From positions 1-57,368 of the IMG/VR virus record IMGVR_UViG_3300032560_001015: DNA of 57,368 nt. One strand, 5' to 3'. The stretch comes from a virus. Numbering within the stretch: position 1 is the stretch's first letter; each line of letters begins with the position of its first letter. Below, one piece after another: positions 27,981-55,360 of the stretch. Both the position numbers and the translations under genes were made by a program. Below the pieces are notes generated by a model. It had not been told where the DNA came from. It was given only the letters and a program-made list of their open reading frames with translations, and searched no databases.

Positions 27981-27988
27981 TATAAATA
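27981..27988 (+). promoter_or_regulatory. T4-type late promoter TATAAATA
   Basis: Exact TATAAATA, 37 bases before the ATG of the holin-like gene at 28025, which also has a strong AAGGAG site. Confidence 0.65.
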
Positions 27989-28024: not shown

Positions 28025-28306
28025 ATGGGTGATGTATTCAAACTCATAGGTGATTTAGGTTTTCCTATCGCAGTGGCGCTAGCAGGCGGCTATTTCGTTT
28101 ATCTCACAATTAAACTATTACTACAGGGTGTGCTAGGCTCAATCAAGGGCATGGCAGGTATTATCACAGCCTTAGATAATCGTGTAAAAACAATGAACCA
28201 TGACGTTATCCGTATTGATACTATTGTAAGTAATGCACTTGGACTTAGACCAGACACTGATCGTATTGCACGTGCAGATGGTAAGACGGACGCCCGTCGC
28301 GATTAG
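28025..28306 (+). CDS. small membrane protein, holin-like (paralogue 1)
   Basis: A 93-residue protein beginning MGDVFKLIGDLGFPIAVALA. One membrane helix (about residues 14-34) is followed by a second hydrophobic patch and a heptad-like tail ending NALGLRPDTD. The arrangement (one N-terminal helix plus coiled coil) fits BhlA-type holin-like proteins. It is clearly related to the protein at 29774-30103: both share GFPI, a short hydrophobic run, an ALxxRxxxxxxDxIR helix and a VxxxLxLR end. Lysis or virion-membrane role is inference. Confidence 0.6.
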   Translation: MGDVFKLIGDLGFPIAVALAGGYFVYLTIKLLLQGVLGSIKGMAGIITALDNRVKTMNHDVIRIDTIVSNALGLRPDTDRIARADGKTDARRD

Positions 28307-29773: not shown

Positions 29774-30103
29774 ATGGATATTGTAATGTTAATCAATAAG
29801 TATGGCTTCCCCATTGTCATGGCAGTGGGCATGGGCTATATTATCAAATACGTATGGGAATGGAGCACAAAAGAAGTTAAGCCTGTGATTAGCGATGCTA
29901 ACACTGTGCTGATTGCGCTTATTGATCGTATACGTATGCTAGACAATGACCTAATACGCTTAAATCAAAAAGTAAACACAGTCTTACACCTACGTGGCAA
30001 AACAATTGAACACGAACGTGTTGAAGCTGAAAAAGAAATTAATATGAAAGTACATAAAGCTAAAACAGAAGACGACCAAGCCGCATCAAGCGGCGAAGGT
30101 TAA
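29774..30103 (+). CDS. small membrane protein, holin-like (paralogue 2)
   Basis: A 109-residue protein beginning MDIVMLINKYGFPIVMAVGM with a helix near residues 8-28, then a charged coiled tail with LIALIDRIRMLDNDLIRLNQ and VLHLRG. Related to the protein at 28025-28306. Ends convergent with the D,D-peptidase gene; the two stop codons overlap by 4 bases. Confidence 0.6.
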   Translation: MDIVMLINKYGFPIVMAVGMGYIIKYVWEWSTKEVKPVISDANTVLIALIDRIRMLDNDLIRLNQKVNTVLHLRGKTIEHERVEAEKEINMKVHKAKTEDDQAASSGEG

Positions 30104-30870: not shown

Positions 30871-32008
30871 CCGTTATGACATTTCGTTTAATTAACTCTT
30901 TGAAGTCTTCCATGTTGTCTGCCTTTGGTGCGCAATACCCGCAGAAGCATATAGATTTTGCACACTTGACCACAGGCATAGATTTAGTTTCAAATTGCTC
31001 TTTAAGATTATTGATTAGTGCTGAGCTATTGCTCAAGTTGCCAATTGGTTCTACTTTGCCAGTGAATGACATCTTACAATCTTTATTAAAATAGACCTTG
31101 CCAGTGGTCTGTTGAACAAATAAGAAGAACCAATTTACACTACAGTTCCAGCCAAAGAATCCCTGTTTAGGCACAAATACCACAGCTGATTTCAAGTCTT
31201 TGTTTAAGGACATTTTCCTACCACCACAACATGCACGACCTTCACAGATGCTTACAACATCGCTGGTATCTGTTGCTATATCATTTAATTGTTCTATAGC
31301 TGGTTGATTATTTTTTGAATTGGTATTAGAAATCCAAAATGTTTTAAACTTTGAATATTGATCAGCGGTGTATGCTAGTTCTGGATTATCAAATGGTTTG
31401 GGTATACATCTAATATCGTGTTGCTTACAAAATTCCACAGCTTCAGATGATTTAATCCATAACTCAGGTACGGTGTGCATCATTACCACACATTTTACAC
31501 GCTTGTTATTGTTCTTTAATTCTAATAGATTTTCAAAGAATATCTTTTCTTGTTTAGGAAGATTTTCTGCATGATAGCTGACTGTAAATTCATCTATTAG
31601 ATCTATTACTTTGCTCCAGATACTTTGTTTAACAATAGCATTGGTAGTGGTGGTAATAGTTAATTCCCATTGGCTGGAATACTTTTTATATTTTTCTCTG
31701 CAGGCAGTGAGAATATCAATGATGTCTGGATGATACAAACTTTCGCCGCCATAGACGTTTAATACTACCTTACGTTGAGTGGGCTTTTTATTGGCCATGT
31801 ATAGGCTAACGTACTCATACATAAAGTCAATAGTTTGTAAACATTCATCTAGCGGAGGATGAGGTAACGAGTTATCGTGCCCTCCTTCTTCACCTATTTC
31901 GCAATAGCTGCAATCCAAATTGCACTTTTTGGTTAGTTCCCAATCTAATAGAAAGGCTGGTATATTATTGGGATCTAGAGCGATCCCAATTGATTTAATT
32001 TCTTCCAT
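30851..32008 (-). CDS. radical SAM enzyme with extra cysteines
   Basis: A 385-residue protein. The cluster motif CNLDCSYC (C29-x3-C33-x2-C36) opens a SAM radical core, with the GGES-like NVYGGESLYHP near residue 88. Additional cysteines appear as CEGRACCGGRK near residue 255 and CAKSICFCGYC near residue 350, fitting a SPASM-like second cluster region, as in enzymes that modify peptides. No candidate precursor peptide is directly adjacent. It overlaps the cyclase gene by one base, so the peptidase, SAM enzyme, cyclase and lipoprotein are one operon. Confidence 0.78.
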   Translation of the reverse strand: MEEIKSIGIALDPNNIPAFLLDWELTKKCNLDCSYCEIGEEGGHDNSLPHPPLDECLQTIDFMYEYVSLYMANKKPTQRKVVLNVYGGESLYHPDIIDILTACREKYKKYSSQWELTITTTTNAIVKQSIWSKVIDLIDEFTVSYHAENLPKQEKIFFENLLELKNNNKRVKCVVMMHTVPELWIKSSEAVEFCKQHDIRCIPKPFDNPELAYTADQYSKFKTFWISNTNSKNNQPAIEQLNDIATDTSDVVSICEGRACCGGRKMSLNKDLKSAVVFVPKQGFFGWNCSVNWFFLFVQQTTGKVYFNKDCKMSFTGKVEPIGNLSNSSALINNLKEQFETKSMPVVKCAKSICFCGYCAPKADNMEDFKELIKRNVITDVINYE

Positions 32009-34032
32009 TATTTGCTCGTAGCGTGATAAGTGCCGTCCCAGTTAGCTGGAACTCCCTCTTCAAGACGCTCAATCATCTTGTGATAGTATTCTTTAATTTC
32101 TACAGTTGGATCAGCTTCTAGTTCACGTGCCCATTTAAGTGCGGCAACCCAATTGCCACGTAGATATTCTTTCTTATATTCTTCGTGTTTGTATGCGACT
32201 GTATGACCCACAGCATAGATATCTAAGCCGATGGTTTTGCCTTTAACAGCAATGTTGTCTAACCATACCACAGGGAAGTCATCTTTACAATACTCAGCAG
32301 TCTTAGGTCCAATGATTAGTAATACACCATAGGCCTTAGTTTGTCCTTCTAAACGTGCCGCAGTGCTGACACTATCACCTAAGACATCATAGCCAAACTT
32401 ACTTTTAGCACCAATGTTACCAATTAAAGTTTCACCTGTGTTAACACCAGCACCCATGCCCACTGGTGGACGACCTTTGGCTGTTAGTTCCTTGTTGAAA
32501 TCAGCAATGGCATCAATCATTTCTAGTGCTGTACGTACCGCAGTCTTGGCATGGTTAGCATCATCCAATGGAGCACCATGAACGTGCAGGCTGGCATCAC
32601 CAATGAACTTGATCAGTGTACCGTCATTCTTAAGCACAGGAATACTCAGTGCTGTCATGTAGTCGTTCATGATCTGTGTAAGTCCTTCTACATCATCACC
32701 AAACGATTCGCCTAGGGTAGTAAACCCACGCAGGTCTGTCATGACAATTGATAGTTCTTTACGCTCACCACCTAGTTTGATCAGCTCTGGATTCTTTTGC
32801 AAGCGTTCTACTATAGTAGGATTAACATAGCTGCCAAACTGTTTCTTGATCTGTTGTTTCTGTAAGAATTCACTAACAAACTTAACACCATAAGCGTGTA
32901 GCATAACAAGAACTACACCTGCTGTAGGCACAATAGCATCTATTAAGAACTTGTAGTGCGCAAACACATACATGCTTGCTGGAATTAAACTAGCAGTTAA
33001 TACAACACCTACACCTAGGCCAACATATACCCAACGTGATAATATTAGGATAATAAGTGAGATAACTACAAGTGCTAATAGTTCAGCACCAGGAGCCCAA
33101 TCAGGACGTTCAATATTTACATTGTTAGCCAGCGTAGCAACTACAGCGGCCTGCATGTCTTGTGGCCAAACACTGCCTTTTGATGTTGCTACTGGATTAC
33201 CAATACCTGCGGCACTGGTACCTACAATAACAATACCTTTCTTAAAGTCTTTAGGTAGGTTAACTGCTGATACAGGAATACTCTGTTGACTCCAGTCTAC
33301 CCAGATACGACCTAGGCTGTCTGTACTAATAGGACGGAAGCTAGGCACACGCATTTTCTCAACGCCATTCTCATTTAGCTTAACTTGGAATGTGTCATCA
33401 TTACTAATAACACGCAGTACTTCTAAAGGAACGCTGGGATATAAGCCACCATTATAGCCCACAAACAATGGCAAGCGACGATTAACACCATCAATCTCTG
33501 GCATAGTGTTAGCAATACCAACACCAATGGCATTATTTTCTAATTCTGGAATGTTGGCAATAATGCCTGGATAGTTAATGATAGTATCTAAATAGTCTGC
33601 ACCAATTACAGCACTACCTGGTTTGCGTGGAATATTCTTGCTGGTCTGTGCGGGCATGTTAGTAAGAATAACATTAGCCTGTGTTCTTAACACTGTGGCT
33701 AGTGTTGCATCGCCACCTTGGCGATCCTTTTCTGGCATTAATACGTCCCAAACAACTAGGCCAGCATTGTGGGCGTATATTTGATCAATTAGATTAGCAT
33801 AGATGTCACGCTTAAATGGCCATTGACCATAACGGTCTATGGTAGCTTCATCTATGTTTACAGTATAGATATTATTTTGAGTAGGCTTCTGATTGGTAAT
33901 AAGTGTGTCAAAGTATCGGAGCCTAACACTTTCTACAAATGTAGGTCCTTGAAACACTACAGCTACAATAAGAGCTAGAGTAATGAGAGCAGTCCATGGA
34001 CTGACTAAGATTTTCTTAAGTTTGTTTTTCAT
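32008..34032 (-). CDS. CHASE2-domain membrane adenylyl cyclase
   Basis: A 674-residue membrane protein. One N-terminal helix (14-33), an extracytoplasmic CHASE2-type sensor (about 35-305), three helices (about 315-385) and a C-terminal class III cyclase (425-610). The catalytic domain has metal Asp433 (TDLRGFT) and Asp479 (KFIGDASLHVHGAP), Lys475 and Asp549 that select adenine, and Arg560. The usual transition-state Asn is Ser556 in GDSVSTAARLEG, so activity may be reduced or regulated differently. It would make cAMP when its sensor is occupied. Ends 1 base into the radical SAM gene and starts in the lipoprotein stop. A membrane cyclase is very uncommon in phage. Confidence 0.9.
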   Translation of the reverse strand: MKNKLKKILVSPWTALITLALIVAVVFQGPTFVESVRLRYFDTLITNQKPTQNNIYTVNIDEATIDRYGQWPFKRDIYANLIDQIYAHNAGLVVWDVLMPEKDRQGGDATLATVLRTQANVILTNMPAQTSKNIPRKPGSAVIGADYLDTIINYPGIIANIPELENNAIGVGIANTMPEIDGVNRRLPLFVGYNGGLYPSVPLEVLRVISNDDTFQVKLNENGVEKMRVPSFRPISTDSLGRIWVDWSQQSIPVSAVNLPKDFKKGIVIVGTSAAGIGNPVATSKGSVWPQDMQAAVVATLANNVNIERPDWAPGAELLALVVISLIILILSRWVYVGLGVGVVLTASLIPASMYVFAHYKFLIDAIVPTAGVVLVMLHAYGVKFVSEFLQKQQIKKQFGSYVNPTIVERLQKNPELIKLGGERKELSIVMTDLRGFTTLGESFGDDVEGLTQIMNDYMTALSIPVLKNDGTLIKFIGDASLHVHGAPLDDANHAKTAVRTALEMIDAIADFNKELTAKGRPPVGMGAGVNTGETLIGNIGAKSKFGYDVLGDSVSTAARLEGQTKAYGVLLIIGPKTAEYCKDDFPVVWLDNIAVKGKTIGLDIYAVGHTVAYKHEEYKKEYLRGNWVAALKWARELEADPTVEIKEYYHKMIERLEEGVPANWDGTYHATSK

Positions 34033-38502: not shown

Positions 38503-38503
38503 G

Positions 38504-38578: not shown

Positions 38579-38580
38579 AT

Positions 38581-38654: not shown

Positions 38655-38662
38655 ATTAAAAC

Positions 38663-38740
38663 TGGAGCCCCCAGAGAGATTCGAACTCCCCACCTTTTGG
38701 TTCGTAGCCAAATGCTCTAATCCAAATGAGCTATGGAGGC
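38663..38740 (-). tRNA. tRNA-Arg(ACG)
   Basis: Loop CTACGAA (anticodon ACG), acceptor GCCTCCA/TGGGGGC, CCA encoded. A34 needs deamination to inosine by the host TadA enzyme to read CGU/CGC/CGA. Confidence 0.94.
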
Positions 38741-38741
38741 A

Positions 38742-38818
38742 TGGTAGCAATAACTAGATTCGAACTAGTGACCTTATCCGTATGAAGGATCTGCTCTGGC
38801 CAGCTGAGCTATATTGCT
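38742..38818 (-). tRNA. tRNA-Met(CAU), elongator-like
   Basis: Loop TTCATAC (anticodon CAT), acceptor AGCAATA/TATTGCT, CCA encoded. Third CAU tRNA of the array, presumably elongator Met. Confidence 0.9.
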
Positions 38819-38826
38819 ATGTTGGA

Positions 38827-39402
38827 TTATTTACGGACTATGAGCATTTGGATCTTTTCTCCAAATACTCCACAATTTAATAAGCTAGTTGGATACATAC
38901 CACAGACTTCGTTGATAGCCTGTTGTACTCCTAACATGTCTGAATCATGACAAAGTATGATTGCTTCATCTTCTGATAGTGTCATGGATTTAATAATATC
39001 ATTTTTGGCCATCTCGTATGAATGATCGCCATCAATGAATGTAACACCAAATTTAACATCATTGATTTCATCTAATAGGTATTCACTTGAATTAGTAATC
39101 AATTGAGTTCTTTTATCAATTATATTTGCTATATCTTTTGGCAATAAGTTTTCCACATCAATTGAATATAATTTACCTTTATTATTGTCCGTTAAAGCAC
39201 CACATATAGTCAAAGTTGATGTGCCATAACTACGGCCTATTTCTAATACATTTTCTGGTTTTTTAGAATAGATGATTGAATATAAAAATAGTATATCATT
39301 CTTAGAACATTTAGCATGCCCAGATGGGACCAATTCCAAAAAATCATCTAATCGATGAATGAAATCTGGATATGAGCCGTCAATAAAATCCATTGTTAAC
39401 AT
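38827..39402 (-). CDS. class I SAM methyltransferase-like protein
   Basis: A 191-residue protein (MLTMDFIDGSYPDFIHR...). Motif I is VLEIGRSYGTSTLTIC with the binding Asp in YSIDVENLL, followed by VTFIDGDHSYEMAKND, typical of small O-methyltransferase-like proteins (Methyltransf_24). It sits between tRNAs and may act on sugars or small molecules; nucleic-acid motifs are absent. No clear ribosome site; a second ATG three codons in is possible. Confidence 0.7.
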   Translation of the reverse strand: MLTMDFIDGSYPDFIHRLDDFLELVPSGHAKCSKNDILFLYSIIYSKKPENVLEIGRSYGTSTLTICGALTDNNKGKLYSIDVENLLPKDIANIIDKRTQLITNSSEYLLDEINDVKFGVTFIDGDHSYEMAKNDIIKSMTLSEDEAIILCHDSDMLGVQQAINEVCGMYPTSLLNCGVFGEKIQMLIVRK

Positions 39403-39424
39403 AGTATATATTTACATTTATTCT

Positions 39425-39496
39425 TGGAGCACAGGGCCGGATTTGAACCGGCGGCTTTAGGGATTTGCAGTCCCCGCCATTAGGCCACTCTGGTAC
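39425..39496 (-). tRNA. tRNA-Cys(GCA), imperfect acceptor
   Basis: Loop CTGCAAA (anticodon GCA), T arm CCGG/CCGG, CCA encoded. Two mismatches in the acceptor stem (GTACCAG against CCTGTGC), so folding is weaker than in its neighbours; possibly degrading or edited. Confidence 0.78.
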
Positions 39497-39509
39497 CGTT
39501 GCGTAAAAA

Positions 39510-39583
39510 TGGCTACCCCACACGGATTTGAACCGCGACTAAGAAGTTTGGAGCTTCGCGTGCTGCCGTTACACTATGGGGTA
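39510..39583 (-). tRNA. tRNA-Trp(CCA)
   Basis: Loop CTCCAAA (anticodon CCA), acceptor TACCCCA/TGGGGTA, G73, CCA encoded. Confidence 0.95.
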
Positions 39584-39591
39584 ATTGATTG

Positions 39592-40194
39592 TTAATGGTG
39601 GCCTAGTGTCCACCCTTTTTCTAAATATTCATTTATATCATCAGCTTTAATAAAACTAGATACTGTACCATTGTTCATCATCTTTCGTCCTAGCTGTGCC
39701 TTTGCTAGCGCATTTCTATGTGTATCTGTTTTAGGGATATCTTTGTTTATGCGTGATGCGTGTTTTCTAAATGCGTCTGGGTCTTGTTTTGCCCAATTAT
39801 TAACAGAACATTTTCTTCTTTTTTCATCTGTTGTTCCTTGGGCAAGGGCAGACAATCTTATTTTTTCAATCGACTCTTGCGAATGTTTTTTACCAGAAAA
39901 TGCACCCACAATGCCTGGATTACCACCCGAGCCGCCTATTTTGAAATTGTATGTATTTGTATCCTTAACAAATTCTTCATTTACTATTTCGCGTTCTTTA
40001 TTAAACATGTCTTGTTTATTGTCAAACACATGTAAAATCTCTTTAGTAAAATTTTGCTTTCCGTGTTTAGAAATAGCACGCTTAAGATACTTTCCGGACC
40101 CTAAGTAATCGTCATTCAACTCTTTAGTTTGGTGCGATCCGACATAAATTTTATTATCGATTAAATTTGTAGTCTTGTATATAATATAGAACAT
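39592..40194 (-). CDS. GIY-YIG homing endonuclease
   Basis: Start placed at the ATG at 40194 (MFYIIYKTTNLIDNKIYVGS), preceded by GGAG; the longer frame is promoter sequence. The GIY-YIG core (IIYKT...KIYVGSH, catalytic Arg near RAISKHG, Glu near EREIVNEEF) is in the first 80 residues. A NUMOD3-type end (FSGKKHSQESIEKIRLSALAQ) follows. A mobile nuclease lodged in the tRNA array, opposite in class to the HNH genes at 34528 and 41485. Confidence 0.85.
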   Translation of the reverse strand: MFYIIYKTTNLIDNKIYVGSHQTKELNDDYLGSGKYLKRAISKHGKQNFTKEILHVFDNKQDMFNKEREIVNEEFVKDTNTYNFKIGGSGGNPGIVGAFSGKKHSQESIEKIRLSALAQGTTDEKRRKCSVNNWAKQDPDAFRKHASRINKDIPKTDTHRNALAKAQLGRKMMNNGTVSSFIKADDINEYLEKGWTLGHH

Positions 40195-40211
40195 TTTTAT
40201 CTCCACTATAT

Positions 40212-40219
40212 TATTTATA
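40212..40219 (-). promoter_or_regulatory. T4-type late promoter TATAAATA
   Basis: Exact box 18 bases before the GIY-YIG gene start. Confidence 0.6.
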
Positions 40220-40378
40220 CAAAACTGCTGTGCTACCATTTTAATTAGGTTGGAGTTGTCCCCCAGGATGCCCGTAGCCCTATGCGTCCATAGGGTTCAC
40301 TGGTAAATTCCAGCTATAAGTGGAGTTTTCTCCTACTTATCGTAGGACTCGCATGCTCCGGACTGTTCTTTATTTATT
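40220..40378. other. structured non-coding spacer
   Basis: No gene. Contains a perfect 8-bp hairpin: ACCCTATG / CATAGGGT with a CGTC loop (40277-40296), and other partial pairings such as GGAGTTTTCTCC near 40323. A possible small RNA or processing signal upstream of the endonuclease. Confidence 0.35.
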
Positions 40379-40452
40379 TGGCAGGCCCACCTAGAATCGA
40401 ACTAGGACTAACAGGATCAAAACCTGTTGTGCTACCACTACACCATGAGCCA
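40379..40452 (-). tRNA. tRNA-Gln(UUG)
   Basis: Loop TTTTGAT (anticodon TTG), acceptor TGGCTCA/TGGGCCT (weak U-U first pair, as Gln tRNAs tolerate), G73, CCA encoded. Confidence 0.92.
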
Positions 40453-40464
40453 ATTAAACTTTTT

Positions 40465-40538
40465 TGGTGCTCTCACCAAGAATCGAACTTGGAATACATC
40501 CTTACCATGGATGCGTTATGCCACTTAACTATAAGAGC
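40465..40538 (-). tRNA. tRNA-Thr(GGU)
   Basis: Loop ATGGTAA (anticodon GGT), acceptor TGCTCTT-type pairing with GAGAGCA, CCA encoded. Confidence 0.94.
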
Positions 40539-40540
40539 AT

Positions 40541-40632
40541 TGGTCCTTCTGGAGGGACTCGAACCCCCATTAGCGGCTTATCTAGCACTCACTCCTTATA
40601 AGGGAGCCGTTCTACCATTGAACTACAGAAGG
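40541..40632 (-). tRNA. tRNA-Ile(UAU)-like with extended variable arm
   Basis: Loop CTTATAA gives anticodon TAT. Acceptor CCTTCTG/CAGAAGG and T arm GGGGG/CCCTC pair well, D arm GTTC/GAAC is class I in type. But the variable region is 22 bases, as in class II tRNAs (Leu, Ser, Tyr). A rare combination; amino-acid identity is uncertain. Confidence 0.75.
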
Positions 40633-40643
40633 ATAAAAATATT

Positions 40644-40733
40644 TGGCGGAAGCGGTGAGATTCGAACTCACGAAGGGTTTCCCCTTGTCTGTTTTCAAGA
40701 CAGGTGCAATCAGCCAGGCTCTGCCACGCTTCC
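40644..40733 (-). tRNA. tRNA-Ser(UGA)
   Basis: Class II with long variable arm, loop CTTGAAA (anticodon TGA), acceptor GGAAGCG/CGCTTCC, G73, CCA encoded. Confidence 0.95.
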
Positions 40734-40926
40734 AAAATAAGTGGGCGGTTTGCTGTACTCTCCTAACCTCGAATACGTAATGTTACAGCTTTCTCCCGGG
40801 TAGCAAGTCACCACATTGTTCTTCAGCTTGCGCTGTGATTCCTCCTTGCTTGGTAGGTATTTTTGATCTTACAGGGTTTTATTGGCACGCCCTACTTCAC
40901 CCTAAACGCGATGTGGTTGGAATACT
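40734..40926. other. non-coding spacer in tRNA array
   Basis: No tRNA arms, promoter or ORF recognised. Possible precursor or processing sequence between tRNA-Ile(GAU) and tRNA-Ser(UGA). Confidence 0.35.
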
Positions 40927-41000
40927 TGGTAGTCCGTACTGGTTACGATCCAGTGTTTGTCGATTATCAGTCGACTGTTCTCCCATTGAACTAACAGACT
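40927..41000 (-). tRNA. tRNA-Ile(GAU)
   Basis: Loop CTGATAA (anticodon GAT), acceptor AGTCTGT/ACGGACT, CCA encoded. T loop begins ATC rather than TTC. Confidence 0.93.
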
Positions 41001-41007
41001 ATAAAAA

Positions 41008-41083
41008 TGGCTCCGGTCGTTGGAATCGAACCAACCTTCATGGATTAACAGTCCACCGCCTACACCGTGTTTGCTTGACCGGA
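41008..41083 (-). tRNA. tRNA-Asn(GUU)
   Basis: Loop CTGTTAA (anticodon GTT), acceptor TCCGGTC/GACCGGA, G73, CCA encoded. Confidence 0.95.
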
Positions 41084-41106
41084 ATAAAACTTTACTACTA
41101 CTAACT

Positions 41107-41181
41107 TGGTGCGCAGTGAAAGGATTGAACTTTCGACCTTGGCCTTGTAAGGGCCCTGCTCTCCCGCTGAGCTAACCGCGC
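41107..41181 (-). tRNA. tRNA-Val(UAC)
   Basis: Loop CTTACAA (anticodon TAC), acceptor GCGCGGT/ACTGCGC, A73, CCA encoded. Confidence 0.95.
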
Positions 41182-41189
41182 AATTAATT

Positions 41190-41264
41190 TGGTGGACCGT
41201 CGGGGAGTCGAACCCCGTACTCCTGCGTGCAAGGCAGGTGTGTTCCCAAGTATACCAACAGCCC
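41190..41264 (-). tRNA. tRNA-Ala(UGC)
   Basis: Loop CTTGCAC (anticodon TGC), acceptor GGGCTGT/ACGGTCC with the G3-U70 alanine identity pair, A73, CCA encoded. Confidence 0.95.
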
Positions 41265-41277
41265 GTAACTTTAAAAC

Positions 41278-41353
41278 TGGTACTCCCAACGAGATTCGAA
41301 CTCGTGTTACCTGCGTGAAAGGCGGGTGTCCTAGGCCTCTAGACGATGGGAGC
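41278..41353 (-). tRNA. tRNA-Glu(UUC) copy 2
   Basis: Loop CTTTCAC (anticodon TTC), acceptor GCTCCCA/TGGGAGT, CCA encoded. The first tRNA behind the promoter at 41370. Confidence 0.94.
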
Positions 41354-41369
41354 AATGACTCTAATAAAC

Positions 41370-41398
41370 ATTATATAGCTAACAGACAATGCTGTCAA
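41370..41398 (-). promoter_or_regulatory. sigma70-type promoter for tRNA genes
   Basis: TTGACA (41398-41393), spacer 17, TATAAT (41375-41370), reading into the tRNA-Glu-Ala-Val-Asn-Ile unit. Confidence 0.82.
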
Positions 41399-41406
41399 CA
41401 ATTATT

Positions 41407-41482
41407 TGGCGCGATATAGGGGTTTCGATCCCCTTACCTCGGCAGTGACAGTGCCGTGCTCTCCCGATTGAGCTAATACCGC
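41407..41482 (-). tRNA. tRNA-Asp(GUC)
   Basis: Loop CTGTCAC (anticodon GTC), acceptor GCGGTAT/ATATCGC, G73, CCA encoded. T loop begins ATC as in the Ile and Lys genes here. Confidence 0.93.
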
Positions 41483-41484
41483 AT

Positions 41485-41895
41485 TTATAAACTACTATAC
41501 CATTTCATACCTTTAGTAGCACGACCATTTCCTATATTTCGTGCTTTATATGTATCTAACTGCGAGTCGCAATTTGGACACACTAATCTAAAATTATCCG
41601 GCATATTATTACTTGCGTCACCATCAATATGATCTATAATCATAACTAACGGCTTGTTATTATATTCTGGCGATTGTCCGCAAATAGAACACATTTCACC
41701 ATCTCTTAATTTAACAAACTTTTTAATTGCTGATCTATGCTTAAGTAAACCTTGTTCAAACAATAATTTATTATCTTCAAACCATTTAGCTGTGCGATGT
41801 GTTGCTTGACATTTGTTATTACAATATTTTCCTGTATAACTATAGCCTTTAATGATATTTTCTTTTCCGCAACATAAACAATTAAAATACTTCAT
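41485..41895 (-). CDS. HNH endonuclease
   Basis: A 136-residue protein. An N-terminal four-Cys element (CLCCGKENIIKGY...YCNNKCQ) is followed by the HNH core CSICGQSPEYNN, MIIDHIDGDASNN and LRLVCPNC-like FRLVCPNCDSQ. Good AAGGAG site. A mobile nuclease between tRNA-Lys and tRNA-Asp. Confidence 0.83.
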   Translation of the reverse strand: MKYFNCLCCGKENIIKGYSYTGKYCNNKCQATHRTAKWFEDNKLLFEQGLLKHRSAIKKFVKLRDGEMCSICGQSPEYNNKPLVMIIDHIDGDASNNMPDNFRLVCPNCDSQLDTYKARNIGNGRATKGMKWYSSL

Positions 41896-41942
41896 AGGTA
41901 GAGCTCCTTATTACTATTATTTAGCTCTATCTATAAAATACT

Positions 41943-42016
41943 TGGTGAGTCGTGACGGTTACGATCCGTCGTAGACTGGTTAAAAGCCAGCTATTCTCCC
42001 ATTGAATTAACGACCC
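41943..42016 (-). tRNA. tRNA-Lys(UUU)
   Basis: Loop CTTTTAA (anticodon TTT), acceptor GGGTCGT/ACGACTC, A73, CCA encoded. Confidence 0.93.
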
Positions 42017-42124
42017 TAAATTTTGGCGTCACAGTCTACCCAGAAGAAGTTGACTTTCTCGTGTCCTTTGCACACTAACAGCTTTGAACTGAGAGATTAA
42101 TGTAACTGGAACTGCGACATAACT

Positions 42125-42208
42125 TGGTGGGTGATCTAGGAGTCGAACCTAGTTTCCAGAGGACACAGATTTACAGTCTGCTGCAGTCGCCAATGCTGCT
42201 CATCACCC
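42125..42208 (-). tRNA. tRNA-Tyr(GUA)
   Basis: Class II with long variable arm, loop CTGTAAA (anticodon GTA), acceptor GGGTGAT/ATCACCC, A73, CCA encoded. Confidence 0.94.
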
Positions 42209-42214
42209 GCTAAA

Positions 42215-42288
42215 TGGTCTCAGTGGAAGGAATCAAACCTTCGACACATGGTCCCAAACCACGCATGTTATCTCTACACCACACTGAG
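42215..42288 (-). tRNA. tRNA-Pro(UGG)
   Basis: Loop TTTGGGA (anticodon TGG), acceptor CTCAGTG/CACTGAG, A73, CCA encoded. Last tRNA of the array at the 42 kb end. Confidence 0.94.
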
Positions 42289-44974: not shown

Positions 44975-44989
44975 GAAAACTAACTCAAT

Positions 44990-45015
44990 AAAAAGCCCCA
45001 ATTAAGGGGCTTTTT
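44990..45015. terminator. bidirectional intrinsic terminator
   Basis: A perfect 10-bp stem AAAAAGCCCC / GGGGCTTTTT with a 6-base loop, between the converging 44774 gene and the 45026 gene; ends both transcripts. Confidence 0.9.
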
Positions 45016-45025
45016 ATTGATACAG

Positions 45026-45187
45026 TTAGATCCTAACTATAGACCATTTGCTGTTGAATGGCTTCCCTTCGGCCTTGTGTTTCACAATTTTAAGAAACTC
45101 TTTTTTACGTAGTTCTTTAATTGCTTCTGTATCGTGGTCGAGACAAGCACGATACAACTTAGTTACTAGTTTACTTTGTTTCATCAT
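45026..45187 (-). CDS. 53-aa basic hypothetical protein
   Basis: A small basic frame (MMKQSKLVTKLYRACLDHDT...) ending PFNSKWSIVRI. A strong AAAGGAGGA site is 5 bases upstream of the ATG, and TATAAATA stands 20 bases before it. Possible nucleic-acid or protein binder; no family recognised. Confidence 0.6.
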   Translation of the reverse strand: MMKQSKLVTKLYRACLDHDTEAIKELRKKEFLKIVKHKAEGKPFNSKWSIVRI

Positions 45188-45258: not shown

Positions 45259-46734
45259 TTACGGTCCTTGACGTACAGTCACAGTACCGCAGCCTCCTGC
45301 TTGTACGCAGGTTTGACTTATACCATAACTTTGTCCGCCTGTTTGTGTTAGATTTACACTAGCGGGGCCACCAGCATTGGTTAGGTTGATGGTTGCTGTG
45401 TTGGCTGTATTGCCTGACTGATTTACTGTAGCAGTGTTACCATCTCCATTTAGATTAACATCTAGAAAATGCTGCCCAAGTCCAGTTTGACTAATTGTTT
45501 CTGTATTTTGATTGCCTGAGACTGCGGTGAATAACTGTTTAGGTGAGTTACCAGTTTGTATTAGACCTATGTTATTCTGATTGCCTGTGACATTGATGCT
45601 GGCATAGTTGCCTACGTTATTATTAACTGTGGCCTGCTGTTGAACGTTAACTGAATTGTTAACTCCACTAACATATATGCTACTATAATGATATCCAGAG
45701 TCTGTGCCACTACCGTTACCGTTTGCGTCTGTGCCTTGATTAACTGTTAGACTATTGCTTCCCCCTAGTAGGTCTGCGGCTATGACGTTATGTGTGCTTA
45801 ATGTATTAGTAGGGTCGCCCTGATGTATAGTAACTGTGTTATTGCCGCCACGAACTTTCATAGCAGTTTGATCTTGTCCACCTATTAGGTTAGACTGATT
45901 GTTTACTGTGATATTAATATGATCACCACTGCCAATTTGATCTATATAGACGTGGCTGGGTGTGGGCAAGTTGACCTGCTGATTACGAGAAATGTTCATT
46001 GATGTTTGTTCAGCATTGGTAATACCACTGCCCCCACCCACAGTAGTTGTGCTTAATAGTACTGCACTGCCATTGTTAACCACAGTCTGAGAGCCATCAC
46101 TATAGGTTGTAGTGGTAATAGGTTGACTGTAGGTATAGACCGTCGCTCCACTTGTAGCTGTTGTGGTAATTGTTGAGTTTACTCTGCTGGTTATAGTAAC
46201 AGCAGGTGGCGCCGACTGTCCTGCCGCTAAGGGAGTAGTGTTAGGCGGAGTATAATTAGTCATGTAGGTATTACTAGGATAACTCTGTGTGATAGTCCAA
46301 GATCCACCTTGCCCATAACTATATCCCTGTGCTGTAGTGAACAATGTACCCCAACTGCCATTACCATTATAGAATATAGCACCATCTGCCAGAGCCACAA
46401 AGGTCCCTGTGTAGTCCAACACACGAACTAGATTATTGTTAGTGTCATATACTCCAAGTCCAAAGGTTCCAGGATTAGTTGAGCTATGAAAAAAAGCCAA
46501 ATAATCACCAGCTGATGCATAGGCATTAGTTTGTGTAGATGTTAGTCTGCCCGCTTGTAATTGGCCACTTGCGTTGACACTGGCATACAAATAATTGAAA
46601 CTGCTGGCATATAATTTGCCGTTGCTGGTATACCACTGTACATCAAATACCTGTGCGAAGCTAAAATGTTCTTGGGTAACGTCAGCCCATGCACTAGAAC
46701 ATACAAGTAATAAGATTAACAGTAACTTTTTCAT
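45259..46734 (-). CDS. secreted protein with curlin-type repeats (curlin 3)
   Basis: A 491-residue exported protein (signal peptide MKKLLLILLLVCSSAWA). Residues 20-170 form an unrecognised N-terminal domain with several Tyr/Ser beta strands. From about residue 265 the chain is built of curlin-like repeats: VYIDQIGSGDHINITVNNQ, INVTGNQNNIGLIQTGN, VNLNGDGNTATVNQSG. That is the pattern G-x2-N-x5-Q of amyloid fibre subunits. It ends with a Cys pair (GISQTCVQAGGCGTVTV). It is the last gene of the operon and could cap or anchor the fibre. Overlaps the FecR gene by 4 bases. Confidence 0.75.
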   Translation of the reverse strand: MKKLLLILLLVCSSAWADVTQEHFSFAQVFDVQWYTSNGKLYASSFNYLYASVNASGQLQAGRLTSTQTNAYASAGDYLAFFHSSTNPGTFGLGVYDTNNNLVRVLDYTGTFVALADGAIFYNGNGSWGTLFTTAQGYSYGQGGSWTITQSYPSNTYMTNYTPPNTTPLAAGQSAPPAVTITSRVNSTITTTATSGATVYTYSQPITTTTYSDGSQTVVNNGSAVLLSTTTVGGGSGITNAEQTSMNISRNQQVNLPTPSHVYIDQIGSGDHINITVNNQSNLIGGQDQTAMKVRGGNNTVTIHQGDPTNTLSTHNVIAADLLGGSNSLTVNQGTDANGNGSGTDSGYHYSSIYVSGVNNSVNVQQQATVNNNVGNYASINVTGNQNNIGLIQTGNSPKQLFTAVSGNQNTETISQTGLGQHFLDVNLNGDGNTATVNQSGNTANTATINLTNAGGPASVNLTQTGGQSYGISQTCVQAGGCGTVTVRQGP

Positions 46735-47855
46735 CGTTGTATCACCGTTATAGTACTGCCCGCACCTTGATTGACACGGTTTTTAATAGTAACTGCGCCC
46801 TGTGTTTCTACTAGTAGACTATTTTGATCTTTAGGAGTACTAATACATTGATTGTTACTGCCATCACTACGGCATAAGGTAACTTCACTTGCGCCAATAC
46901 TTTCAGTAACACCTGTAGACTTTTTATAGTCTGGCAGTATGTTATTAGTTTGACTTGGTGCTATCAAGTTAGCTAGTAGTCCAGCTTGTTCTTCTTGTAG
47001 CTGTTGTGCCAAGATGTCAAAAATGTTTTCAAGGAAGTATTGTTCTAATAGTGGGTGTGCCAATGGGTTATCTCCAAAGGGTGTGCCTTCTTTTTCAAAC
47101 TCATTTTTTAAATAATCTTGTTTAAGAAAGTCTACATTTAACATATCAGCAGGATTTTTAGTTGATATGTTTTTAGTTTCTATTCCTTCCTTGCGTAGTT
47201 CTTTGGGCGGACTAACGATCAGCAGGTTGTTAATCGTATCAGGTGACAAGTTTAATACTGTTGGTTTCATTGGCATTGTAGTACGACTGGCTACCTTAGT
47301 GCCTTGAAAGGCTACATTAAGACTAACCATACCAGCATCGTTAATAACGTCAATGGCACCTGTTTTACAATCTCTGTCTATATCTGCCCAACCTTTAGGA
47401 CAACTTGGCAGTAGAATAACAGTACTTTCGCCCATTTCATCTACTGTAGCCGTAAAGTCTGTACCACGCACTGCTATGGTCGCGCTAGGCGTGTTTAGTG
47501 CTACTTTGTTAGGGTTACTGTGCGCAATAGCACCTGATGCGTAACGAACTGTGCCCTGTGTAAACTTCATAGCCAGTTTGCCGGCACTGGGCTTTTTAGG
47601 ATCAAATACAAAATCATCAATGACTAACTTACTACTTTCATTAACTTCTACTTTAGTATCGTCTTGGAATGTAATGCCAATCTTACCTTTAGTAGTCTGT
47701 ACCTTGTCATTCATTTCAATGCCAGCACCTTTCTTACCTTCCATGGCAGTAAAACTACGAGTAATAGTACCAGGCAGGGCTGTTTGTTCTGTGATAGTAC
47801 CCACTGCGGCATTGGCTAGTAAAGGGACAAGTAACAAGATTAGTAGTTGCTTCAT
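46731..47855 (-). CDS. FecR-domain protein in the curli operon
   Basis: A 374-residue exported protein (signal peptide to about residue 16). The FecR core covers KKGAGIEMNDKVQTTKGKIGITFQDDTKVEVNESSKLVIDDF..., RYASGAIAHSNPNKVALNTPSATIAVRGTDF, the usual periplasmic beta module. The C-terminal part has long charged stretches and ends ...GSTITVIQR with curlin-like character. FecR domains often sense or stabilise matrix or iron-linked export. Coupled by 4-base overlaps to curlin 2 and curlin 3, so it is a true operon member. Confidence 0.85.
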   Translation of the reverse strand: MKQLLILLLVPLLANAAVGTITEQTALPGTITRSFTAMEGKKGAGIEMNDKVQTTKGKIGITFQDDTKVEVNESSKLVIDDFVFDPKKPSAGKLAMKFTQGTVRYASGAIAHSNPNKVALNTPSATIAVRGTDFTATVDEMGESTVILLPSCPKGWADIDRDCKTGAIDVINDAGMVSLNVAFQGTKVASRTTMPMKPTVLNLSPDTINNLLIVSPPKELRKEGIETKNISTKNPADMLNVDFLKQDYLKNEFEKEGTPFGDNPLAHPLLEQYFLENIFDILAQQLQEEQAGLLANLIAPSQTNNILPDYKKSTGVTESIGASEVTLCRSDGSNNQCISTPKDQNSLLVETQGAVTIKNRVNQGAGSTITVIQR

Positions 47856-48667
47856 CTTGACATACTCGTTATGTTGATAACATTATTACTGCCAGTGGTT
47901 TTAAGATTTATATTACTATCTGCTACTAGACTACTTTGATTAACAGCAATGGTATTACTATTACCACTAATGTCTAGGTTTGTGCGATGTCCATTTGCAG
48001 CGCCATCTGTTTGATTTACTGTGACTATATTAGCAGTACCATTTAAGTTAGTCTGCGCCGTGCCATTTGTGCCAGATTGTGTTACCGTGACAATATTGTA
48101 ACTACCATTAGCGGCACTGGTAGTCTGTGTATTAGTACTACCGCTTACGCTTGTATTAACTGTTTGGTTAAGTCCTGTAGTTGATACAGTCACTGAGTTA
48201 TGGTCGCCAATAAAACGCCCATTGTATACGGCATTATCACCTATCTGTGACACATCCATGCCATTACTCACTGAAGTATTCTTGCCATCTGCGTTGACAT
48301 CTATAACCGCTTTGGCATTGTTACCATTAATGTTATAACTCCAACTGTTGCCTTGTACAGGTTGTGGGCATGTAGGACAACTAACATTGGTCATCGGACG
48401 TGGCATACTGGAAGTTTCCATGTTCAACTGTAGTTGATCGTTGGAGCCTGTTTGTTGTATGGTTACTACATTACCATTACCATGAATGGTAGCTGTATTT
48501 GTGGGAATAGCAGGGCCGCCTATACCATATAGGCCATTGCCTACTCCATCTTGTAATACGTAAATATCTGAGAATTGACCAGATTGATCAATATATGCTT
48601 GGTTGTCGCCAGCAAAAGAGGGCAGAGTCGTAACAAATAAGACTGCTGCCCATATCCATGCTCGCAT
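47852..48667 (-). CDS. curlin-repeat protein (curlin 2)
   Basis: A 271-residue exported protein (signal peptide to about residue 19; mature start GDNQAYIDQSGQ). Repeats follow the curlin pattern: AYIDQSGQFSDIYVLQDG, ATIHGNGNVVTIQQTG, NIVTVTQSGTN, IVTVNQTDGA, SGNSNTIAVNQSS. Between them a 60-residue insert has CPTCPQP, unusual for curlins. Likely the nucleator or minor fibre subunit. Confidence 0.85.
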   Translation of the reverse strand: MRAWIWAAVLFVTTLPSFAGDNQAYIDQSGQFSDIYVLQDGVGNGLYGIGGPAIPTNTATIHGNGNVVTIQQTGSNDQLQLNMETSSMPRPMTNVSCPTCPQPVQGNSWSYNINGNNAKAVIDVNADGKNTSVSNGMDVSQIGDNAVYNGRFIGDHNSVTVSTTGLNQTVNTSVSGSTNTQTTSAANGSYNIVTVTQSGTNGTAQTNLNGTANIVTVNQTDGAANGHRTNLDISGNSNTIAVNQSSLVADSNINLKTTGSNNVINITSMSR

Positions 48668-48679
48668 TTTACACCCCGC

Positions 48680-49510
48680 TTAGTGAGCGTTGGTGTTGAT
48701 AGTGATTGAGTTACTGCTGCCTACTGAAGTAACATTAACGTTGCTTACACCTGTACTACCTTGCTGTGTAACTGCAACTGTATTGCTACTACCATTGAAA
48801 CTCAATTCAGCATCGTGACCTGTGCCCGTTTGACTAACTGTGTAGGTATTGCTTGCGCCAACACTGGTCAAATTGATAATATTGCTACCACCAGTTTGTG
48901 TTAGTGTTGCTGCGTTGCTACCGCCACCTGTTAGGCTGATACCTTGACTATTTCCACTACCTGTGATTGTTGAAGTAAGTGTATTGCTACTACCACCACT
49001 GGTTAATGCTGTAACGTCGTTGGTGCTACCTGTAATACTTAAAGTAACTCCAGCACTGTTACCGCTTTGATTAATATTAACTAGGTTGCCTGAGCTGGCT
49101 GTTGCTGCACCGCCACTAGGTGTACCTGTAATATTAATAACACCAGTTGAACTGTCACCAGTTACGCTATAATTGAATGTTTTGTTATATGTATTACCAT
49201 TGCGTGTTTCTGATGTAAAGCCACTTGTAGCATTGTTATTGATATTCAATTTTAAGGTATCACTTGTACCAGCTTGATCTACGTTGACAACATTGTTGTT
49301 ACCGTAAATTTTAGCACGATTACCTGTGCCGGCACTGCCGCTGCCTGTACCACCAATATTGTCACTGCCTGTGCTGCCACTACCATCACCTTGTGTTACT
49401 GTGATAGTGTTAGAGTCACCGCTTTGATCAATATAGATGTTGTTGTCAGCATAGGCCACACTTGTAGTAAGTAATAACACTGCGAATAAACTTTTAATGT
49501 AATTTAACAT
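48680..49510 (-). CDS. curlin-repeat protein (curlin 1, major-subunit candidate)
   Basis: A 276-residue exported protein (signal peptide MLNYIKSLFAVLLLTTSVAYA). The mature protein opens NNIYIDQSGDSNTITVTQ, the textbook curlin repeat, and continues with about ten related units (VNVDQAGTSDTLKLNI, LVNINQSGNSAGVTLSI, YTVSQTGTGHDAELSF, VAVTQQGSTGVSNVNV). It lacks cysteine and charged stretches, as an amyloid subunit should. It overlaps csgG by 17 bases, so it is the first fibre gene behind the pore. Confidence 0.88.
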   Translation of the reverse strand: MLNYIKSLFAVLLLTTSVAYADNNIYIDQSGDSNTITVTQGDGSGSTGSDNIGGTGSGSAGTGNRAKIYGNNNVVNVDQAGTSDTLKLNINNNATSGFTSETRNGNTYNKTFNYSVTGDSSTGVINITGTPSGGAATASSGNLVNINQSGNSAGVTLSITGSTNDVTALTSGGSSNTLTSTITGSGNSQGISLTGGGSNAATLTQTGGSNIINLTSVGASNTYTVSQTGTGHDAELSFNGSSNTVAVTQQGSTGVSNVNVTSVGSSNSITINTNAH

Positions 49511-50525
49511 CTATCTGCTCCTTGGACACTTTAGGTCCGTTATCCACCACTGGCATTAGTTTATTAGTTTTCTTTTTTACCTGTGGTTTCTTAGTTTCCT
49601 GTTTTACTTCCACTGGTGCTGTTGGCTCTTCCACCGCCTTGGCCTCAATTGGTTCCTCTTTAGCTATTGGTTGTGTTACCACCGCTGGCTCTGGAGGTTG
49701 TGCTACAGGAGTACTTGGTACTACAGGTAATGCCTGTGGAGCATTAGTTCTATAGTCCCAAATTCCTTTACGTTGACCTTCTTTGATCAACTCTACTACT
49801 GCGGCTTCAATTGTAGTTTTCACCGCTAAACTTGTTGGCTCGTTTATAGTCAAGCCTGTTTCAAATTCAAATGATTGTGTGCCACCTTTAAAGAACTTAA
49901 GCACAGCAATACTATCAGCTGTTGAATAAATTGTTTTACTTTCTGTTACTGTGGCTAGAACTTTACCAGAGTTAACTGATATTGCTCGCAAACTAACTGT
50001 AACTACATCTTTACTGTACTGTGTCTGTGGACCAATGCCCAACCATTTATAAGCTGTACCACCGCTTTCTATACTGCTATCATAACCAATAATACCACCT
50101 TCCATAATAACACCAGCAAACTGTAAGGGCATTAGTGGTTTAGCATTAGTGCCTTCGTAGGCATCGCGCATCTGTTTGATAATAGTACGCTCTTTAACTA
50201 GGTTGTCCACGTTAACACGTTCTACTACATCAAACCATTGTCCGTGTCCTACTTCCTGTAAGGCACGTATTAAAAACGGCTCAGCACCCTGTGTTACCGC
50301 AGTACTAAAACTAGCAATGTTTGGTATATTACGGCGTTGCCCAGTTTGATCTTTAAAACTATACACAGCCACAGTAATAGGCTTGCCCATTGGTGCTGGT
50401 ATAGTATCAAACTCTTTTTGTAGTTTAATACCCACTGTTTCTGGTTTAGACTCATATCCAGCTTTCTGTATAGTGGCACAGCCAGTCAACGATAATATAG
50501 CTAATATTGTTATTATTCTTTTCAT
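49494..50525 (-). CDS. csgG: CsgG-like curli secretion pore lipoprotein
   Basis: A 343-residue outer-membrane lipoprotein. Lipobox LTGC with acylated Cys16, then ITVAVYSFKDQTGQRRNIPNIASFSTAVTQGAEPFLIRALQEVG, GQWFDVVERVNVDNLVKERTII, GVIMEGGIIGYDSSIESGGTAYKWLGIG, VTVSLRAISVNSGKVLATVTESKTIYS, which reproduce the E. coli CsgG order closely. CsgG forms the nonameric channel for unfolded curlin. The extra 65-residue C-terminal tail is Pro/Glu/Lys-rich and not part of the classical pore. It overlaps csgF and curlin 1 with no gap. Confidence 0.94.
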   Translation of the reverse strand: MKRIITILAILSLTGCATIQKAGYESKPETVGIKLQKEFDTIPAPMGKPITVAVYSFKDQTGQRRNIPNIASFSTAVTQGAEPFLIRALQEVGHGQWFDVVERVNVDNLVKERTIIKQMRDAYEGTNAKPLMPLQFAGVIMEGGIIGYDSSIESGGTAYKWLGIGPQTQYSKDVVTVSLRAISVNSGKVLATVTESKTIYSTADSIAVLKFFKGGTQSFEFETGLTINEPTSLAVKTTIEAAVVELIKEGQRKGIWDYRTNAPQALPVVPSTPVAQPPEPAVVTQPIAKEEPIEAKAVEEPTAPVEVKQETKKPQVKKKTNKLMPVVDNGPKVSKEQIDVKLH

Positions 50526-50526
50526 A

Positions 50527-50979
50527 TTATGGTTGTGTAAATGTAAATGATCCTAGTGGTACATTGATCGTGGTTACATTCCCCAAGTTATCCGTTACTT
50601 GTAATTCTACAGAATTCCCTAGGTTATGCCAAAATATTGTATTACCTTGGAAATTAAATGTTCCGCTAGTGGCTGCACCAGGAGCAAACATAGCAGTAGC
50701 TAGGTTTTGACTTACCTGTGCTAGCACACGTGATTCTAAGTTTACTAGGAACTGGTTAATAGGAGTATTAGCTGCATCTGTTTTGGCCTGTTGCTGTGCT
50801 GCTTGTAAGGCCTGCTCAATTGCCTGCTTGCGAGTAAACTCTTCGTTCTGTATGGTTAAGACATAAGTGCCGTAACCATTGCCATTGAAGCTTGGGCTTT
50901 TGAATGTATAGTCAGGCAGAGGTGCGGCCGTCGCAGTTGATGCCGCTAAGAAAGTGATTGTTATTATTATTTTTTTCAC
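50527..50979 (-). CDS. csgF: CsgF-like curli assembly protein
   Basis: A 150-residue exported protein (signal peptide to about residue 18), GTG start 8 bases after GGAG. The mature N-terminus LPDYTFKSPSFNGNGYGTYVLTIQ is the CsgF signature (FxxPSFGGN) that plugs into the CsgG pore and positions the nucleator. The C-terminal half is beta-rich and somewhat longer than in E. coli. First gene of the operon. Confidence 0.88.
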   Translation of the reverse strand: MKKIIITITFLAASTATAAPLPDYTFKSPSFNGNGYGTYVLTIQNEEFTRKQAIEQALQAAQQQAKTDAANTPINQFLVNLESRVLAQVSQNLATAMFAPGAATSGTFNFQGNTIFWHNLGNSVELQVTDNLGNVTTINVPLGSFTFTQP

Positions 50980-51000
50980 TGTCTAGGCTCCTAGTATTAA

Positions 51001-51008
51001 TATTTACT
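51001..51008 (-). promoter_or_regulatory. late-like promoter box before csgF (AGTAAATA)
   Basis: AGTAAATA on the minus strand, 22 bases upstream of the csgF start codon. A TATAAA stretch lies further up at about 51027-51032. Confidence 0.35.
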
Positions 51009-51043
51009 AGAACCCTAGGGTGAAGTTTTATAGTACTTTAATC

Positions 51044-53437: not shown

Positions 53438-55360
53438 TTAGGCATCCTTTTTAACTTCAGTGAACTCAGCATCTACTACTTCACCTTCTACTGGTTTCTC
53501 TGAATTGGGTTGTGCACCAGGTTGAACTTCAGCTTGTTTAGCTACTTCAGCCTGTTGCATAATATCAAACAATGGTTTAACTGGCTCAGCTAGTGCTGAG
53601 ATAGCTTCCATGATCTTGTCAGCATCTTCTGTAGCTTTGGCTGTTTCAAGATCTTTTAGTGCTGATTCAATTTTTTCTTTCATGCCATCATCTAACTTGT
53701 CACCGTGTTCTTTTAATGCTTTGTTAATACCGTGTACTTGTTCATCAGCACGGTTTTTAGCATCAACTACAGCACGAGCTTTAACGTCAGCATCTTTGTT
53801 AGCTTCAGCTTCTTGAATCATCTTTTCAATTTCTTCTTCAGTTAAGCCTGAGTTAGCTTTGATAGTGATCTTGTTTTCTTTGCCAGTGTTTTTATCTTTG
53901 GCACTTACTTTCAAGATACCGTTAGCATCAATGTCAAGTGTAATTTCAATTGCTGGCACGCCACGTGGAGCAGGAGCAATACCTTCTAGGTTAAATTCAC
54001 CTAGTTTCTTGTTGTCCTTGATAAACTCACGTTCACCTTGTCCAATAGCTACTGTAACTGCTGGTTGGTTGTCTTCTGCTGTTGAGAATGTTTGACTAAC
54101 TTTAGTAGGAATAGTTGTATTCTTTTTAATCAGTTTAGTCATAACACCGCCAACTGTTTCAATACCTAGGCTCAACGGAGTAACGTCTAACAATAACACG
54201 TCTGTTTTATCACCTGCTAGAACAGCACCTTGGATAGCCGCACCAACTGCTACAGCTTCGTCTGGGTTAACGTCTTTGCGTGGATCACGTCCAAAGATCT
54301 CTTTAACTGATTCCTGTACCTTAGGCATGCGTGTTTGGCCACCAACTAAGATAACATCATCAATGTCGCTGGCACTTACACCTGCATCTTTCAATGCTAC
54401 CTTACATGGCTCGCTAGCACGTTTGATCAAATCTTCTACTAGGCCTTCAAACTTAGCACGTGTAATAGTTACGTTTAAGTGTTTAGGACCAGTGGCATCA
54501 GCAGTAACGTACGGTAAGTTTACTGTGGTTTGTTGGCTGCTTGATAGTTCAATTTTAGCTTTTTCTGCTGATTCTTTTAGGCGTTGTAGAGCTAGAACAT
54601 CTTTTGACAGGTCAACGCCTGACTCTTTTAAGAATTCATCAATTAAGTAGTTCATTAGACGTTGGTCAAAGTCTTCACCGCCTAGGAATGTGTCACCATT
54701 GGTAGCTAGTACTTCAAATTGTTTTTCGCCATCAACATCTACAATTTCAATGATTGATACGTCAAATGTACCACCACCTAGATCGTATACAGCAATCTTA
54801 CGATCTTTCTTAGAATCTTTATCCATACCAAACGCTAGTGCAGCCGCTGTTGGCTCATTGATAATACGTAAGACTTCTAGGCCTGCAATAGTACCTGCAT
54901 CTTTAGTTGCTTGACGTTGGCTGTCATTAAAGTAAGCAGGAACAGTAATAACTGCCTGTGTTACTTCATGTCCAAGATAGTCTTCAGCGGTCTTTTTCAT
55001 TTTGCGTAAGACTTCAGCTGAAATCTGTGGTGGTGCTAGTTCTTGATCATCAATCTTAACCCATGCATCACCATTTTTGTTTTTAACAATTTTGTATGGC
55101 ATTAGGTCAATGTCTTTTTGTACTTCTTTTTCGTCAAACTTACGACCAATTAAGCGTTTAGCCGCATAGACTGTTTTCTTTGGATTTGTAACTGCTTGAC
55201 GTTTAGCTGGTGCACCAACTACGATCTCATCGCCGTAGGCAACGATACTAGGTGTAGTACGAGCACCTTCGTTATTTTCAATTACTTTTGGTTTGTTGTT
55301 TTCAAGAATGGCCACACATGAGTTAGTGGTGCCGAGGTCAATACCAATGATCTTAGACAT
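53438..55360 (-). CDS. dnaK: DnaK chaperone (Hsp70)
   Basis: Full-length 640-residue Hsp70. Signatures [33 protein letters not shown] and [15 protein letters not shown] are intact; the linker [13 protein letters not shown] and substrate-binding domain follow, with a helical lid and a bacterial-like tail ending [14 protein letters not shown]. It binds exposed hydrophobic stretches in an ATP-driven cycle with DnaJ and GrpE, which are not in the window. Complete frame, normal bacterial length. Preceded by the chaperone leader element and a micro-ORF. Confidence 0.98.

Follow-up and report, generated by a model that had tools for sequence, protein, structure and literature searches.

Curli operons in phage genomes have been discussed since 2020 (PMC7029224; in 2022 also PMC9004378 and PMC9599517), and many pelagiphages carry one, as do two phages in culture, HTVC008M of Pelagibacter and Melnitz of Methylophilales (both Kyanoviridae). 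The freshwater SAR11 phages studied in PMC7029224 are without it. These operons have been puzzling ever since, as their expression time and cargo are unclear; functional guesses already found in the three studies include sibling capture and a block of superinfection. Here, we analyze a curli (type VIII) secretion operon at positions 45259-50979 (minus strand) of a viral DNA stretch of 57,368 nucleotides (IMG/VR record IMGVR_UViG_3300032560_001015), in the following called the window. The first-pass annotation of this DNA knew of no described phage system of the kind, which does not hold: the operon is present with the same gene order in HTVC008M and Melnitz, and a CsgG relative is found on at least 593 viral contigs. 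An undescribed system is thus ruled out by literature and database. New are the single phage CsgG clade with its module partners, the swappable adhesin modules, the re-reading of the FecR protein, and the predicted gate in the csgF leader. Given these observations, we favor, with modest confidence, that a large T4-like phage of aquatic bacteria uses a phage-adapted type VIII secretion system to equip the infected cell, late in infection, with an amyloid fibre that bears an adhesin.

With regard to HTVC008M and Melnitz, the window shares the order csgF-csgG-curlin-FecR-curlin as well as a cyclase gene, but its cyclase is displaced, i.e., it is found about 11 kb away beyond an array of 28 tRNA genes. 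Genes for two small membrane proteins (h93 and h109, see below) have counterparts just upstream of the operon in both cultured phages, while those of the window are located beyond the cyclase. Furthermore, the window encodes two tandem first curlins and a different adhesin module, and its CsgG is only 43-47% identical to theirs. The type VIII secretion cluster of HTVC023P-type podophages (PMC9599517) also links FecR and cyclase to csgF, csgG and curlin, likewise with a single viral clade of CsgG. When compared to the bacterial curli system (E. coli csgBAC/csgDEFG), the CsgG pore, CsgF and the curlin repeats are common to both, whereas the phage module is without CsgE and shows in addition the FecR protein, the cyclase, the small membrane pair, a modular adhesin curlin and the predicted late gate.

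All six genes are found where they had been annotated and form one tight operon in the order csgF, csgG, two curlins, FecR-domain protein and third curlin, with gaps of 1, -17, 12, -4 and -4 bases. The first gene, csgF (50527..50979, GTG start), encodes the pore accessory or nucleation factor (Pfam CsgF 3.9e-14; PHROG 35372 8.4e-47), for which phmmer retrieved no solved structure. The following csgG (49494..50525; Pfam 8.8e-44) encodes the lipoprotein that forms the secretion pore in the outer membrane, with a C-terminal tail rich in proline and lysine. Its annotated lipobox is present as LTGC, with C16 invariant across phages, and the pore core can be aligned to solved E. coli CsgG (PDB 6lqh/3x2r, E ~1e-46). 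Among the three curlins, only curlin 1 (48680..49510), a fibre subunit, is matched by Pfam (Curlin_rpt 2.8e-8); it resembles the solved curlin-repeat protein 8c50 (2.3e-11) and shows an excess of the repeat motif. Curlin 2 (47852..48667), the second fibre subunit, has a weak match to the CsgB model (0.0019); most relatives encode one curlin at the position of this pair. Since curlin 2 and the last, adhesin-type curlin (45259..46734) are below Pfam's model, their identity rests on repeat statistics and synteny. They contain 4 and 6 exact G-x2-N-x5-Q motifs compared to 0.3 and 0.5 expected from shuffled sequences, and 6 and 7 looser strand motifs compared to 0.5 and 0.8, which none of 1000 shuffles reached. 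That is, the exact repeats sum up to 5 + 4 + 6 = 15, and the 'dozens' of the first-pass annotation were an overstatement, while signal-peptide-like N-termini are indeed present on the fibre proteins. Neither CsgC nor CsgD was recognized beside the operon, where no model search was made for either. Judged by a CsgG-family pore, CsgF and curlin-repeat subunits, the locus encodes a putative type VIII system from which CsgE is missing.

The adhesin-type curlin is composed of a signal peptide, an N-terminal module, a linker, curlin repeats and a C-terminal cap with two cysteines that are conserved in the A2/A3/A5 alignments. The modules preceding the repeats are exchangeable: among 28 such proteins, 6 carry PA14 and 7 an F5/8 type C domain, next to the type found in the window, and the last curlin of HTVC008M also bears PA14. 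The window's own module (residues 18-178; 46201..46683, minus strand) is new, i.e., its profile matches curlin proteins only (about 33, at varying positions) and no other protein among the loci compared. An origin from a tail fibre was rejected for this module, as the 149-kb contig introduced below holds no second copy and a tblastn search of 50,697 phage records gave no match. Module swapping is visible among pairs with CsgG 78-87% identical: L025/L071 and L069/L091 combine unrelated modules with similar curlin ends, and of L005 and the window one has a module and the other has none. The repeats are modelled as beta strands, with blocks from residue 261 to 470 reaching a predicted local distance difference test (pLDDT) score of 63-94. 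From its sequence, the last curlin looks like an adhesin-tipped fibre component with swappable heads of sugar-binding type, and this modular build is more suggestive of attachment than of a pore alone. We found no earlier report of such adhesin modules; PA14 and lectin are not in the main text of PMC9599517, nor is PA14 in PMC9004378 or PMC7029224.

The FecR-domain protein (46731..47855, minus strand; FecR 3.1e-8) has a signal-peptide-like N-terminus and no other hydrophobic or membrane segment. Its end is conserved as NRxNxGxxTxITxxQN, which is curlin-like, and the C-terminus is modelled as a regular series of strands (pLDDT 72-86); the structure model gives a weak match to FecR/PupR-type domains. 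The hallmarks of a transmembrane anti-sigma regulator were not found, i.e., Pfam reports the FecR domain alone and there is no transmembrane helix beyond the N-terminal signal. Signal peptide, lack of a further membrane segment and curlin-like end together make the published reading as an iron regulator unlikely. Instead, the protein is probably the base or nucleator of the fibre, as its sequence features suggest.

In T4, the lysozyme gene e as well as soc, 49 and I-TevI are silenced until late by a leader hairpin, which seals the Shine-Dalgarno sequence in longer transcripts while late transcripts lack its 5' arm (PMC3014915). The csgF leader shows the same layout by prediction. A hairpin at 50975..51024 (minus strand) pairs the csgF Shine-Dalgarno (50988-50991) and contains, near its loop, the late-promoter-like box AGTAAATA (51001-51008). 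The RNA fold has an energy of -22.6 kcal/mol (z -5.36), which none of 200 shuffles matched, and the predicted pairing of the Shine-Dalgarno is 0.75 in read-through RNA compared to 0.24 in RNA started after the box. Whereas the T4 leaders control lysozyme, capsid or nuclease, the predicted gate would control a secretion operon.

We also assessed this layout among 104 non-redundant csgF genes, 48 of which have a late-like box together with a Shine-Dalgarno. A site that read-through RNA would seal and late RNA would leave free is predicted for 22/104 csgF genes but only for 10/1225 other long open reading frames (ORFs; Fisher p ~2e-18), where the control set was derived mechanically and thus holds some false genes. 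When restricted to genes with a box, the difference is still present (p = 3e-4). With a looser helix rule, the gate is predicted for 44/83 csgF genes heading their operon (1.2 expected from shuffles) and for 0/21 directly preceded by h93/h109. Stem sequences diverge widely across csgF leaders while the pairing is kept. Exact copies of the T4-type late promoter TATAAATA are located near csgF starts in 9/103 cases and near h93 starts in 16/104 (0.5 expected for each), and none was found before the operon's internal genes. In the window, an exact copy is located shortly upstream of h93 (27981..27988, plus strand). Given the predicted leader structures, we infer that the operon is expressed late, behind a candidate translational gate of the T4 e type.

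At the other end of the operon, a strong intrinsic-terminator-like site with a 15-pair stem (44985..45020, minus strand) is placed 3' of the third curlin and one small ORF (about 44999-45187, minus strand), which itself has an exact TATAAATA (45208) and the terminator behind it. A scan for sigma-70 promoters gave no more sites than shuffled sequences.

The module extends beyond the six genes. The displaced cyclase of the window (32008..34032, minus strand; CHASE2 2.5e-38, Guanylate_cyc 1e-17) is a CHASE2-adenylate/guanylate cyclase with 41% identity to Melnitz gp104, which directly follows the Melnitz curli operon, and in many relatives a cyclase gene is found directly or closely downstream. 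The small membrane proteins h93 (28025..28306, plus strand; 93 aa, PHROG 18771) and its paralogue h109 (29774..30103, plus strand; 109 aa) are holin-like: 8/18 family members match the holin PHROG 4898, the best with 8.7e-5. Neither hits a kinase model at E <= 0.1, i.e., HisKA and HATPase domains were not found. In PMC9599517, one or two short genes preceding csgF are called 'histidine kinases', where the loci studied here encode holin-like membrane proteins of about 90 aa without a kinase domain; we infer that these are probably the same genes. Within the window, the cyclase and h93/h109 keep their relative order beyond the tRNA array (34256-42288, minus strand). A gene for a D-alanyl-D-alanine carboxypeptidase (30100-30870, minus strand) adjoins the cyclase and recurs there in several relatives.

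Among 53 loci of at least 12 kb found via h109, with partners counted within an 8-kb flank, h93 is present in 53, the cyclase in 52, FecR in 38 and csgG in 33. Starting from csgG, the 32 viral loci with full flanks contain FecR (32), cyclase (30), h109 (27) and h93 (21), whereas only about 10/80 csgG loci from bacterial assemblies have module partners, most of them on contigs with phage genes. Thus, FecR, cyclase and h93/h109 are nearly constant in viral csgG loci and absent around chromosomal csgG. This is accompanied by a separation in the phylogeny: phage CsgG forms one clade, with a single branch separating 103 phage rows from 52 bacterial rows (SH-like approximate likelihood ratio test 94), given a bacterial sample of about 80 best hits and a few alphaproteobacteria. 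The nearest non-phage CsgG is at most 51% identical, which rules out a recent gift from bacteria; the few contigs of metagenome-assembled genomes (MAGs) that encode the complete module resemble those of phages, except for L164, which may be of phage or bacterial origin. The latter, from a MAG labelled Saprospirales, encodes the whole module including h93, h109 and cyclase (4562-11101) beside bacterial-looking outer-membrane genes. Contig L122, from a MAG labelled Maricaulis, is a phage contig on which genes for a holin-like protein, an endolysin and structural proteins come right after the curli operon (229-6667), and therefore misfiled phage curli sits in bacterial assemblies. All module genes tested, curlins included, are under strong purifying selection (median ratio of nonsynonymous to synonymous substitution rates 0.07-0.13; csgF 0.087 among relatives), which disfavors decay or a use of the pore only.

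The DNA itself is of phage origin, against the concern of the first-pass annotation that it might be chimeric or part of a bacterial chromosome or plasmid. At 100% identity, the entire window lies within a 149-kb IMG/VR contig, and 57,340 of its bases (all but 28) are identical in a 95-kb contig, which excludes an assembly break at 45 or 51 kb. It contains virion, head-protease and tail-fibre-type genes; the 149-kb contig adds a phage-type DNA polymerase and ribonucleotide reductase, and relatives that share the operon (230-329 kb) encode the T4 major capsid protein gp23 and the late sigma factor gp55 (the latter in 4/4 of the largest). A chimera or a bacterial island is ruled out by contig identity and phage gene content. 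A permuted transfer-messenger RNA (tmRNA; 12636-12987, minus strand) matches the betaproteobacterial tmRNA family, which hints at a betaproteobacterial host. The tmRNA of a phage predicts its host poorly, as the Melnitz tmRNA is SAR11-like although the host is OM43 (PMC9004378).

Given these data, the fibre reading can be spelled out as follows. gp55-type late transcription would start inside the csgF leader hairpin and yield mRNA with a free ribosome site, while the site would be sealed in the longer early read-through mRNA. CsgG and CsgF would form an outer-membrane pore that exports two curlins, the FecR-domain protein and the adhesin curlin. The FecR-domain protein would probably anchor or nucleate the fibre, and the N-terminal module of the adhesin curlin may bind a surface ligand. 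Shortly before lysis, the infected cell would thereby acquire a coat of adhesive amyloid, which would most likely keep neighbouring cells or debris nearby, so that progeny encounter new hosts. An adhesive fibre produced just ahead of lysis is favored by the late timing in combination with the retained fibre subunits and adhesin heads that diversify. The proposal of the first-pass annotation that a phage-borne operon builds an extracellular fibre is supported, with capture or retention favored by the adhesin modules; its suggestion of a superinfection block is, for the early phase of infection, disfavored by the predicted late-only gate.

Several observations weigh against this reading. In Melnitz-infected OM43 cells, examination revealed no clumps (PMC9004378). 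CsgE, as already annotated, is missing, and none of the 17 viral records searched has it; it increases yield, yet is dispensable (PMC7029224). The window's box AGTAAATA differs from TATAAATA at two positions, whereas some relatives have an exact copy. Of the viral curlins in the adhesin position, a considerable fraction is short and has no additional module, the structure models of adhesin curlin and FecR protein are weak (pLDDT ~62), and AlphaFold with Foldseek gave no usable result for the adhesin curlin, i.e., no structural match for the window's module.

The predicted gate is of the type known from the T4 lysozyme gene, and h93/h109 are holin-like and travel with the module, which is in accordance with a lysis timer as proposed for Melnitz (PMC9004378): CsgG/CsgF, together with h93/h109, would be an outer-membrane pore that helps to trigger or speed lysis, with the curlins as passengers. 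The gene order on L122, where a holin-like gene and an endolysin follow the operon, also fits. We nevertheless consider this rather unlikely, since purifying selection acts on the curlins, the FecR protein and the adhesin as strongly as on CsgG, adhesin modules diversify, and the Melnitz operon, though said to be without csgA/csgB, encodes curlin-repeat proteins. A lysis role of the pore and an adhesive fibre are not mutually exclusive. The late gate bears differently on a shield, i.e., a fibre coat that hides the receptors of the infected cell, soaks up competing virions or deters grazers. Such a role was suggested in PMC9599517; surface matrix can limit phage access, and other virions or surfaces could be bound by the adhesin modules. 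Expression delayed to the late phase would miss most of the time in which exclusion matters, such that we think this improbable.

Still lower is our expectation that the adhesin curlins are a component of virion or lysate that stays with released particles and tethers them to surfaces. Late timing would be shared with virion proteins and the modules are of carbohydrate-binding type, but the signal-peptide-like N-termini, together with a dedicated pore in the outer membrane, indicate that the cell exports them before lysis. We give least credence to an ungated CsgG/CsgF that admits nutrients or cofactors, with FecR as an iron-linked regulator (PMC7029224, PMC9599517). The missing CsgE plug speaks for it, but it leaves the kept curlins and adhesin unexplained, late expression would be a poor time for uptake, and the FecR protein has neither a second membrane segment nor an anti-sigma domain.

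Extending the adhesive-fibre reading, it is conceivable, though we advance this only tentatively, that many T4-like aquatic phages make a late-only amyloid net with interchangeable lectin-like heads that captures next hosts or holds progeny on them. If true, the net would be a phage-encoded extracellular hunting device whose heads diversify like tail-fibre tips under an RNA gate as for lysozyme, and viruses would influence how some of the most abundant planktonic bacteria aggregate. Reading FecR and the 'histidine kinases' anew alters the presumed role of the module.

Beside the module, the window encodes GroEL (8731-10350, minus strand) and a full DnaK (53438-55360, minus strand), where some DnaK relatives have exact late promoters upstream. 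Further auxiliary genes are those for a UDP-glucose dehydrogenase (25447-26691, minus strand) and a UvdE-type UV endonuclease (20922-21965, minus strand).

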